From positions 1-23,608 of the IMG/VR virus record IMGVR_UViG_3300023242_001040: DNA of 23,608 nt; one strand, written 5' to 3'. This document shows positions 1,448-6,009 of this stretch, piece by piece. The DNA is from a virus. Position 1 is the stretch's first letter; every line of letters starts with the position of its first letter. Under the pieces are notes generated by a model. That model did not search any database and was not told the origin of the DNA. It saw only the letters and a list, made by a program, of their open reading frames with translations. Both the position numbers and the translations under genes were made by a program.

Positions 1448-1875
1448 TGAAAAAAATATTAATTGCGTTAACCATCTTAATGATGGTAGGTTGTGGGGCT
1501 AGGAAAGCCACTACAAATATTTCAAAAGTTAAAACGAAGATGGAATTGGTTGATACAACGTCAACTGTTACCAAAATTAATGCGAGTACTAACGTGGATT
1601 TTACATCACTTACTATAGTACCAATAGATACATCAAAACCAATAATAATAAATAAAATACCAATTAAAAATGCAAGAATTAAGTTTATCCAACAATCAGA
1701 AAAGGACACAGTTACTAAATCAATTACAGAAACAAGAGGAGAAAGTAAGACAGTTGATACAACAAGTAGAACAAAATCAAAAACCACTAACTCAAATAAC
1801 CTTTATTGGATAATTGGTATGGTTTTATTGGGAGTAATAACAATGGTAATTTACTTAAAATTTACTTATTTTTAA
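1447..1875 (+). CDS. Probable unimolecular spanin (lipoprotein with C-terminal membrane anchor)
   Basis: A 142-residue protein with a classic lipoprotein signal: basic start MKK, hydrophobic core, and a lipobox ending MMVG before Cys16. The middle is a Thr/Ser/Lys-rich, beta-prone periplasmic stretch. The C-terminus is a transmembrane helix at about residues 118-138 followed by a short tail. An N-terminal outer-membrane lipid anchor together with a C-terminal inner-membrane helix is the defining architecture of u-spanins such as T1 gp11, which fuse the two membranes at the end of lysis. I do not see an obvious endolysin or canonical holin beside it, so the lysis cassette may be dispersed. A lipoprotein of other function with a membrane anchor remains possible. 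Its 3' end overlaps the convergent minus-strand gene by 21 bases. Confidence 0.72.
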   Translation: MKKILIALTILMMVGCGARKATTNISKVKTKMELVDTTSTVTKINASTNVDFTSLTIVPIDTSKPIIINKIPIKNARIKFIQQSEKDTVTKSITETRGESKTVDTTSRTKSKTTNSNNLYWIIGMVLLGVITMVIYLKFTYF

Positions 1876-2925
1876 TCCTATTTTAATTCCGAATATATTA
1901 TTAAATGTATTCTCCATCACCATTTTAATTACACCACTTTTATTAATATCTGGAAATATTATACTATCATGTAATGAAATACATGGTATATTTTTATTAT
2001 AAAGATATTCAATCGATTTACTTATAACCTGATATTCATATTTTTGTAATAACATAGCTAATTTTTTATTACCATGTTTTACTTTAATAGAATATATAAA
2101 ATTCCATAATGATGGAAATAACTCTTTAAATGTATTAGATAATTCATTATTCATGTATTTAGCTTTATTATACCATATATTCTTATAAAATTCTTCTTTA
2201 GTACAATTTAAAGTACTATATATATTCCCATTTTTACATATATTTAATAATTCTTGTACATCTTTAGGTAATTCACCATATTGTTTATTATACAATCCAA
2301 TAGCAATTACTATTTGTGATGCTGATATATCAACTTGATTTAATGTATTATTATTCCATCTTAAATATTGTCTATTTTCTTTTTTTAAATTACAAATTAG
2401 TGTATAAATACGAGAATCTTCATGTGGTTGTGCAATATAATGATCTTTATTTTGAATTCTATTTAATATTACTTCCTGAACTTCAGATATATCATTAATT
2501 TCAGGTAATTCTACTGTAATTTCATTAAGGTATTGGAAATATTTATTTAATAAATCACCATAATCTTGGTGTTCATTTTTTAATTCTAATACTTTTGATT
2601 CTACTACTTTACCTTGTTGAAAATATGTTTGAACAGTATATCTTCTACATGAAGTACGGACTCTACGTTCACGAGATACTGATATTATATTATGTTGTTT
2701 GAAGAAATTAAATATTCTTGTATAGTCTTTAGAACCTGATATATTTAGTTTACCTTTTTCAATTCTATAATGAATTGGTGCACCTAAATGATTATTTATT
2801 TGTCTTGTTAATATAAGAGTATAAATATATAAATAACGTTCTATCCATAATTGTTGTTTTTCACCAAATTTGGATGTTTCAGTTTCTAAAAGTTGTAGGA
2901 GTTGTTGATTTTGTAGTAATTTCAT
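1855..2925 (-). CDS. Solitary polymerase-like protein (family-A-like palm motifs), function unknown
   Basis: The only convincing minus-strand gene in the window, 356 residues. The C-terminal half carries an ordered set of motifs reminiscent of the palm of single-subunit family-A DNA polymerases and T7-type RNA polymerases: an R-x-x-x-T-L block (about 172-177), LNQVDISASQ with Asp199 (motif A-like), YKNIWYNKAKY with Lys248 (possibly motif B-like), MLLQKYEYQVI (292-300) and ISLHDSIIFP with His319-Asp320 (motif C-like). The N-terminal 165 residues hold a basic, possibly winged-helix region near 65-100 (RERRVR, CRRY). There is no exonuclease domain, and it is much shorter than a replicative polymerase. 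It resembles conserved hypothetical proteins with an 'R..TNL...DI..SQ ... LHDSI' pattern that I recall from Bacteroidota genomes, but I cannot name a family. It has its own promoter motif and a structured leader. Polymerase activity is an inference from the motifs. Confidence 0.6.
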   Translation of the reverse strand: MKLLQNQQLLQLLETETSKFGEKQQLWIERYLYIYTLILTRQINNHLGAPIHYRIEKGKLNISGSKDYTRIFNFFKQHNIISVSRERRVRTSCRRYTVQTYFQQGKVVESKVLELKNEHQDYGDLLNKYFQYLNEITVELPEINDISEVQEVILNRIQNKDHYIAQPHEDSRIYTLICNLKKENRQYLRWNNNTLNQVDISASQIVIAIGLYNKQYGELPKDVQELLNICKNGNIYSTLNCTKEEFYKNIWYNKAKYMNNELSNTFKELFPSLWNFIYSIKVKHGNKKLAMLLQKYEYQVISKSIEYLYNKNIPCISLHDSIIFPDINKSGVIKMVMENTFNNIFGIKIGLKISKF

Positions 2926-3023
2926 AATTCTGGTTTTTAGTATATTATCTGGTTTTTTTTAATAGGGACCAGAACCTGCGGGGTACTAAGCCGCAGGAAC
3001 CCTATCCACTAATCTAATAGTGG
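2926..3023 (-). ncRNA. Structured 5' leader of the polymerase-like gene
   Basis: Read on the minus strand from 3023, the RNA starts with a hairpin of 6 perfect pairs (CCACTA/TAGTGG, 3023-3006). A composite stem follows: an outer 6-bp arm ATAGGG/CCCTAT (3005-3000 with 2967-2962) and an inner 7-bp arm CCTGCGG/CCGCAGG (2997-2991 with 2981-2975), with a 9-base loop. The arms are separated by an asymmetric internal loop (UU opposite UUCUGGU). The loop UUCUGGU (plus 2968-2974) is perfectly complementary to ACCAGAA at plus 2928-2934, two bases before the AUG, and 6 of 7 bases match a second ACCAGA at plus 2948-2953. An A8 tract follows the stem, so this is not a terminator for the gene. A cis-acting translational switch is the inference; a separate small RNA is possible. 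Confidence 0.6.
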
Positions 3024-3381
3024 CACATATAAATATGTTAAAATTATTAAAACCTCAATATTTTATTATAAAGCCATGAACAACTTTTGTTCATAACTAT
3101 TATATATTTAATTGTTCTTCTTATTATTATTGTTAATATACAATTAATTATTTGCTTCTCCAAATTTTTTATTAATTGTTTTTTTATTATTATTTGGTTT
3201 CATTTTGTATTCATAGCAGGGACCATGGCATTTATGTACTAGATTATTGGTTTTTTTACTATTATTATTATTATTCTTATTATGTTGTTATCACAGCAGG
3301 GGTTATTATATTTTATTATTATATTATATATTCATATGGGGTGCATTTTCAAATATTCATATGTATCAACAAAATTAAATT
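3024..3381. other. Long non-coding region with inverted repeats and low-complexity direct repeats
   Basis: Together with the leader this is the longest gap between genes (456 bases). Contents: a perfect 8-bp hairpin ATGAACAA/TTGTTCAT with a 3-base loop (3076-3094); the octamer TTAATTGT at 3108-3115, its inverse ACAATTAA at 3140-3147 and the direct form again at 3172-3179, each 32 bases apart; two imperfect units of about 80 bases made of a T-run, TTATTATT tract and TCAyAGCAGGG (ends at 3211-3221 and 3291-3301); and ATTCATATG at 3330-3338 and 3356-3364. The frame spanning 3176-3385 is mostly Tyr/Phe from these tracts and is not a convincing gene. A replication origin, regulatory region, or remnant of an insertion are all compatible. 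Confidence 0.5.
3028..3036 (-). promoter_or_regulatory. Minus-strand copy of the ATATTTATA phage promoter motif
   Basis: The plus strand reads TATAAATAT, which is ATATTTATA on the minus strand. It lies 103 bases before the ATG of the minus-strand gene and 4 bases before the first leader hairpin. A start site 4-7 bases downstream would put the 5' end of the RNA at the base of that hairpin. Its orientation with the gene supports a promoter function. Confidence 0.5.
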
Positions 3382-4371: not shown

Positions 4372-4389
4372 GGTTTCAGATTTAGTTTA

Positions 4390-5445: not shown

Positions 5446-6009
5446 ATGACAATAAATCAAAAAAAGGCAGAAATAGATCAATGGTTTAAAAATAATTATA
5501 ACCAATTATTAATTAATACAAAAAAAGTAACTACAACAAGATTCAATATGTTTGGTATTGATTTACTTACTCATATAGTTCAAGATTTCCTTAGTAAATC
5601 TATTGAAGATCAATATATAATTTTAGATGAAGGTAATTTAGAAAATTATCTAACTAAGAATATGAGTCTCCAAATTAAATCATCCTCGTCCCCATTCTAT
5701 TACAAATATAGAAAGTCAACTATGGCTATTAGAGAGTTACTCCCCATCGATTATAGTAGATACGATAATAATGATTTAAATGAAGAAGATAAAAATTTAC
5801 AACATAAATTAATAGATTGTATAAAACAAGAAATAGAATTATTAAATCCATATGAACGTGAATTAATTAATCAAAAATTAGCAAATGGTGAAAAATATGA
5901 AGATTTATGGAAAAAATGGAAAATAAGTAAATCTCATTTAGTTAATGATTTAAAAATAATAAAACATAATATCAGATGTAACTGTATAAAAAAATTAAAA
6001 ATACAATAA
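5446..6009 (+). CDS. Phage sigma-70-like factor (divergent)
   Basis: A 187-residue soluble protein with the two-domain layout of small sigma factors. Residues about 10-90 form a helical domain (DQWFKNNYNQLL, then a helix with D39-L40-L41 and HIVQDFLSK, then SPFYYKYRK) comparable to sigma region 2. Residues about 118-180 resemble region 4: LNPYERELINQKLANGEKYEDLWKK then a recognition helix-like ISKSHLVNDLKIIKHNIR. The 'L.p.er.li.......y.e.....g.s...v...l' spacing is characteristic of the region 4 helix-turn-helix. Similar proteins are known in Bacteroidota phages. It heads an operon of small genes and has an ATATTTATA element upstream. Replacement or supplementation of the host sigma for middle/late genes is inferred. 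Confidence 0.68.
   Translation: MTINQKKAEIDQWFKNNYNQLLINTKKVTTTRFNMFGIDLLTHIVQDFLSKSIEDQYIILDEGNLENYLTKNMSLQIKSSSSPFYYKYRKSTMAIRELLPIDYSRYDNNDLNEEDKNLQHKLIDCIKQEIELLNPYERELINQKLANGEKYEDLWKKWKISKSHLVNDLKIIKHNIRCNCIKKLKIQ

Follow-up and report, generated by a model that had tools for sequence, protein, structure and literature searches.

A covarying pseudoknot leader before replication genes of Flavobacterium phages and mobile elements, and its possible role as a translational switch

What does a structured leader RNA do when one of its internal segments is complementary to the nucleotides directly before the start codon of the gene that follows? This question is raised by a virus record from IMG/VR of 23,608 bases (the window, i.e., the whole stretch of DNA analyzed here), in which such a leader, read on the minus strand, precedes a gene for a protein of 356 aa. 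A sequence-only reading of this DNA had proposed a translational switch or, alternatively, a noncoding RNA that partners the polymerase-like protein as in retrons. All leader features named in that reading were found at their place on the minus strand; they are given here with the basis of each assignment.

The leader of the window and the protein that follows it

3028..3036, minus strand: promoter-like ATATTTATA, a putative promoter ~25 nt 5' of the stem-loop
3006..3023, minus strand: 5' hairpin H1, CCACUA..UAGUGG, 6 bp (computed fold)
3000..3005, minus strand: outer stem S1, 5' strand AUAGGG (covariation)
2998..2999, minus strand: 2-nt linker UU on the 5' side, part of pseudoknot loop 1 (near-invariant in relatives)
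2975..2997, minus strand: inner hairpin P2, 7-bp stem CCUGCGG/CCGCAGG, strands 2997-2991 with 2981-2975, loop 2982-2990 (covariation)
2968..2974, minus strand: 3' bulge UUCUGGU, the 5' strand of S2 (pairs with copy 1 or copy 2)
2962..2967, minus strand: outer stem S1, 3' strand CCCUAU (covariation)
2948..2953, minus strand: copy 1 of the bulge complement, ACCAGA, 6/7, 8 nt 3' of S1
2928..2934, minus strand: copy 2 of the bulge complement, ACCAGAA, 7/7, ending 2 nt before the AUG at 2925
1855..2925, minus strand: 356-aa protein with a winged-helix-like N-terminus and family-A polymerase palm/fingers (homologs, model, fold)

The segment UUCUGGU had been described as a loop; the sequence is present, but it is actually the long (3') side of an asymmetric internal loop, and is called the bulge here. 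The parts follow one another as in an H-type pseudoknot (5' strand of S1, UU, inner hairpin, bulge, 3' strand of S1, linker, copy), in which loop 1 consists of the UU and the inner hairpin and there is no loop 2, with 0 nt between the bulge and S1. In the window, the computed helix energies were -8.1 kcal/mol for pairing with copy 1 and -8.8 kcal/mol for pairing with copy 2. Taken by itself, the window sequence makes a modest case that is suggestive only: the whole architecture reached the observed score in 8 of 5,000 dinucleotide shuffles of the 111-nt leader, and a plain fold of this leader gave z = -2.06. The argument that a perfect 7-mer would be unlikely by chance did not hold up, as 39% of dinucleotide-shuffled 111-nt leaders contain a perfect 7-mer inverted repeat. 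Judging from the sequences compared below, it is the comparative evidence, not the single sequence, that makes the leader structure real. Elsewhere in the window, boxes similar to ATATTTATA at 4389, 5416, 6364, 8492, 14764, 22395 and 23413 (plus strand) lie shortly 5' of ORFs, and the motif is not enriched over the window as a whole. A small protein encoded at 5446-6009 (plus strand) resembles sigma-70 region 4 by eye, and has homologs in several TerL-related viral contigs.

The 356-aa protein gave no significant match in Pfam, NCBIfam or PADLOC and a weak match to phrog_4756, while Pfam matches to SecD, GCN5L1 and the like were rejected as noise. Its relatives in our sets of viral contigs, genomes, plasmids and phages were very distant, with no close ones found; among the distant ones, a homolog in a 595-kb phage led to a family in large phages and other viral contigs. 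Across 52 homologs, R172, D199, K243 and D320 are invariant and H319 is nearly so, and the protein has the catalytic Asp of motif A (DISASQ) and the His-Asp of motif C (LHDS) expected of family A. In an AlphaFold model built with the homolog alignment (pLDDT 85.4), residues ~111-356 match the structures of family-A polymerases, among them Pol theta (Z 14.8, rmsd 3.7 over 232 residues) and Taq (Z 14.3, rmsd 3.1 over 229 residues). According to this model, the palm/fingers fold of PolA is present and the protein is a predicted polymerase; the N-terminal part, predicted to be helical with a beta wing, is probably a winged helix. The protein shares the motif A Asp, the motif C His-Asp and the palm/fingers fold with the phrog_4756 group (“Putative DNA polymerase I”), but it is very divergent in sequence and short, with a winged-helix-like part at its N-terminus, and leaves no space for an exonuclease. 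The window also holds terminase, tail and two GIY-YIG endonuclease genes, and in the simplest view its polymerase gene is the one that serves replication of the phage.

Relatives of the leader and covariation of its pairings

Those large-phage homologs of the 356-aa protein that were inspected lack a recognisable leader of this kind, and the leader is thus not tied to the protein family. A small phage contig with a distant homolog (L140), on the other hand, carries AGGG-UU-stem-UCUCUGU-CCCU followed by ACAGAGA-UA-AUG, which is the plan of the window leader with a bulge and partner that differ in sequence yet are still complementary. Among Bacteroidota genomes, the plan was present in two Flavobacterium loci (L177 and L178), and a profile search (A5) of Flavobacterium and Flavobacteriaceae yielded more homologs, with the plan in L207, L208, L211, L213, L214, L215 and L233. 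In addition, 299 Flavobacterium genomes were searched with R1, a covariance model that covers just the stem-loop; the downstream pairing partners were excluded from it, and it can miss true cases. At E <= 5e-4, this search gave nine further leaders (L270, L271, L273-L279), in which the complement of the leader's own bulge was found downstream as a perfect 7/7 match in eight and as a 6/7 match in one. One weaker match (L281, E 0.005) was retained because the full architecture is present, while four others (L280, L282, L283 and L284; E 0.001-0.07) were taken as false, the architecture being absent. The complete leader of L281 is followed by a frame that resembles an IS21-type transposase.

DNA-pattern scans of our viral contigs returned, among the matches listed, no true case besides L140; TerL relatives of the window phage in the same contigs had neither a homolog of the gene nor an RNA match, and the TerL of the window was not found among 150 Flavobacterium genomes. 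Whole-family and phylum scans with another model (R2) were empty, with 15-21 candidates scored per genome and the known positive G001 missed, so that this empty result says nothing about range. Neither the window nor ten relatives had a match at gathering score in Rfam 15, the best lax match (E 1.4) being taken as chance, and the literature searched held no description of this leader RNA. A different structured leader, with an ACATAG..CTATGT stem and an upstream hairpin and without the bulge rule, is shared by polymerase-family genes in Empedobacter (L179, L181 and L197). Two of the Flavobacterium loci have in common a large inverted repeat 5' of the leader (L177 3428-3500 and L178 3505-3575), of the type TTTCAG.CACATAAAG..CTTTATGTG.CTGAAA, which encloses smaller hairpins.

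Across the leaders, S1 has 5-7 bp, a clear copy 1 lies 5-12 nt beyond S1 in most (it is missing or weak in L140, L178 and L277), and copy 2 lies 19-48 nt away from S1. Each of the 21 leaders has an apparent start codon ~2-17 nt after copy 2; this codon is ATG, or TTG in L177, L178, L208, L214 and L270. Several leaders, namely L207, L208 and L274-L277, have a hairpin that takes up the stretch separating the two copies. Upstream, an element similar to TATATTTAT is present 5' of the leader in most relatives inspected, with TTGAC ~20 nt further upstream in several, and a hairpin of other sequence can be read by eye at the position of H1 in several relatives. As far as can be told from these sequences, the spacing of the parts is compatible with two H-type pseudoknots, of which only one can form at a time.

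The pairing itself was assessed by swapping bulges between leaders. A perfect 7-nt complement of the leader's own bulge lies just 5' of the start codon in 20 of the 21 leaders, 11 of the 21 having been picked in surveys in which paired bases were seen or required; the nine leaders found with R1 are the cleaner sample for this match. Swapped bulges found a perfect complement in 2.8% of cases, and none of 20,000 permutations equalled 20 perfect bulges, the largest number being 9. For covariation, an alignment of the leaders (A13; L140, L177, L178, L207-L281 and window positions 2928-3005) was composed of the stem strands, the bulge and the copies, with neutral spacers added by hand. The 17 pairs over 21 leaders were paired in 99.1% of cells, with two-sided changes in 14 of the 17, and the helix between bulge and copy 2 alone was paired in 99.2%, with two-sided changes in six of its seven pairs; for the helix with copy 1, for which a perfect bulge match is also rarer than for copy 2, the value was 85.7%. 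Alignments of this sort are fitted to or composed from the structure, and such percentages therefore lean towards it, an effect to which the swap test is less exposed. The covariation score was 0.863, compared to 0.217 for shuffled alignments (0/500 as good) and 0.06-0.15 when the pairing was slid, and the stems scored 0.865 in the model alignment. In other words, the check that the sequence-only reading had called for, covariation in relatives, came out in its favor for both stems and for the pairing of the bulge with copy 2, and the description of a structured 5' leader, with a bulge that pairs to the sequence preceding the start codon, stands. By the swap test and by covariation alike, this is a covarying pseudoknot beside the start codon of a replication gene. 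RNA helices usually tolerate some G-U pairs, yet these were found in 0 of 323 pair cells in alignment A13, which is unusual for helices that have diverged to this extent, and only three times in the longer model alignment, so that the constraint could be partly on the DNA.

The genes that follow the leader are of more than one kind: they encode members of the palm family, a divergent relative of 483 residues (L277) and other replication proteins. In L273, L278 and L279, the protein encoded after the leader is 243-271 aa long and lacks a polymerase domain, and the top PHROG hits of the three are to O-like and DnaD-like replication initiators and to replication initiation proteins; the replication-initiation families represented after the leader are phrog_678, 186, 270 and 4221, and two of these initiators have weak HTH or winged-helix matches. 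Over their full length, the various proteins encoded after the leader have no detectable common ancestry. Since the same RNA stands before palm proteins and before initiators that are not polymerases, we consider it, on the sequence comparison, a modular cis leader of replication genes. Its surroundings are prophage-like in L178, L409 and L410 (head proteins, head maturation protease, endolysin), with a small protein of one PHROG common to L178 and L410. An integrative element (L213/L406) encodes an HTH_17 protein and a serine recombinase, and carries an SNF2-type helicase and a DUF4391 protein, with similar neighbors in L407; another element (L408) carries type I restriction-modification genes, and L412 has a similar neighbor. 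In these mobile elements (L406, L407, L408 and L412), the gene that goes with the leader is that of the polymerase.

A candidate translational switch and its alternatives

We infer that the leader acts on translation as a pseudoknot switch with two partners, a reading to which we assign a probability of roughly 60% from the sequence evidence. The leader would fold into an H-type pseudoknot in which S1 is the outer stem and S2 is formed by the 7-nt bulge and a downstream copy, with copies 1 and 2 competing for the bulge. Pairing of the bulge with copy 1 would leave the start region free (ON), while pairing with copy 2 would occupy the nucleotides before the start codon and block initiation (OFF). 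Bacteroidota messages have an unstructured A/U-rich start region instead of a Shine-Dalgarno sequence, and because initiation needs this region, pairing with copy 2 should block it. The switch would presumably determine how much of the replication protein is made, or when, and its trigger may be the encoded protein, a host factor, an antisense RNA or the kinetics of co-transcriptional folding. The mutual exclusion of the two pairings suggests a switch, and the covariation of the stems together with that of the bulge pairing makes the translational switch, as proposed from the sequence alone, the best reading of the leader. Against it count the variable distance between copy 2 and the start codon (2 to ~17 nt), the absence or weakness of copy 1 in some leaders and the near-absence of G-U pairs.

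This last feature also keeps a role at the DNA level alive, in which the repeats would be iterons or an operator of a winged-helix replication protein, and the hairpin part of an origin or extruded or single-stranded DNA. Origins often adjoin rep genes, the weak HTH/winged-helix matches of two downstream initiators suit a DNA-binding protein, and three related sites, two direct and one inverted, would likewise change in concert. However, such sites would not be expected to place one 7-mer in a fixed bulge opposite a conserved UU inside covarying stems, to match the bulge perfectly more often in copy 2 than in copy 1, or to be flanked by a promoter-like box on one side and, ~2-17 nt on, a start codon on the other; we regard this reading as unlikely, if the least unlikely of the alternatives. 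The start of two hairpins right after the promoter-like box would also suit an action in cis on RNA polymerase, as an attenuator or in the manner of HK022 put, an antitermination RNA that acts in cis on RNA polymerase. Such promoter-proximal hairpins would leave the covarying pairing of bulge and copy 2 against the start codon unexplained, and we think this very improbable.

Two further readings involve the encoded protein. In autogenous repression, the replication protein would bind the stem-loop or pseudoknot and stabilize the OFF fold, by analogy to T4 gp43 and gp32; the downstream proteins are indeed replication proteins, and the leader is similar in both location and structure to the T4 operators (PMC3014915, PMC535899). 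Polymerase autorepression of the T4 gp43 type is weakened by the finding that one RNA design stands before proteins without detectable full-length common ancestry, and the large-phage polymerase homologs have no recognisable leader. Autogenous binding is not needed to explain the data, and we judge it improbable, somewhat more so than a role in DNA. The other reading is a partner RNA similar to those of retrons or telomerase, i.e., an RNA that is more than a leader, in which the PolA-like enzyme would take the 7-nt bulge as its template or prime synthesis there, and the copies would be the imprint of the reaction. While a palm-domain protein does follow the RNA in the window, and two direct copies equal the bulge complement, the RNA is not coupled to a polymerase gene, as it also precedes the 243-271 aa initiators of L273, L278 and L279. 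Moreover, the palm matches family A by the model and is probably not that of a reverse transcriptase: the best structural matches are family-A polymerases, retron or maturase RTs gave only weak Foldseek matches, and there was no RT match in Pfam or PADLOC, absence from such lists being no proof. The stems also show the same two-sided pattern as the bulge. The retron-like partner proposed earlier thus finds no support, and we give it the lowest probability of all; if true, it would mean an RNA-guided start of replication by a family-A palm.

Comparison with known leaders and significance

The two-partner translational switch can be set beside known systems. Control of rep translation by a leader that depends on a pseudoknot is known from ColIb-P9 repZ (IncI-type). 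In IncL/M plasmids (pMU604 repA), translation of rep depends on a leader pseudoknot and is prevented by an antisense RNA (PMC8125031). As in these plasmids, the pseudoknot described here lies beside the start of a replication gene, but theirs activates, is opposed by an antisense RNA and is coupled to a leader peptide, neither of which was noticed in the leaders inspected here. In the window-type leader, unlike in the plasmids, the bulge sits within a two-part hairpin and usually has two competing partners; the hosts are different as well, and no sequence relation was seen. By inference from this analogy, the RNA would work like the IncL/M kind, with its own architecture and with two partners in most members. 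T4/RB69 gene 32, a phage replication gene, likewise has an autoregulatory leader pseudoknot 5' of its start region (PMC535899). In T4, binding of the protein is nucleated at the pseudoknot and extends from it into a start region that is unstructured and contains UUAAA repeats (PMC535899), whereas here the pseudoknot partner itself adjoins the start codon. The leader of T4 gene 43 has a hairpin, with no pseudoknot reported (PMC3014915), and is as in the window that of a polymerase gene, but the window protein belongs to family A instead of family B, and polymerases are not the only proteins that the RNA precedes. Leaders of this design form a conserved RNA class without a match in Rfam 15, while leader pseudoknots of rep genes as such are already known.

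The RNA controls, or sits at, replication genes that belong to phages and mobile elements in Flavobacterium, in which RNA regulation has been little studied, and some of the elements that bear it have restriction or helicase cargo. As the pseudoknot is compact and has two partners with clear compensatory mutants, any effect it has on replication timing can be tested directly, and translation control without Shine-Dalgarno sequences becomes directly testable on the same leader. Found before several unrelated replication genes, the element has the look of a portable device by which Flavobacterium phages and mobile elements would control their replication.
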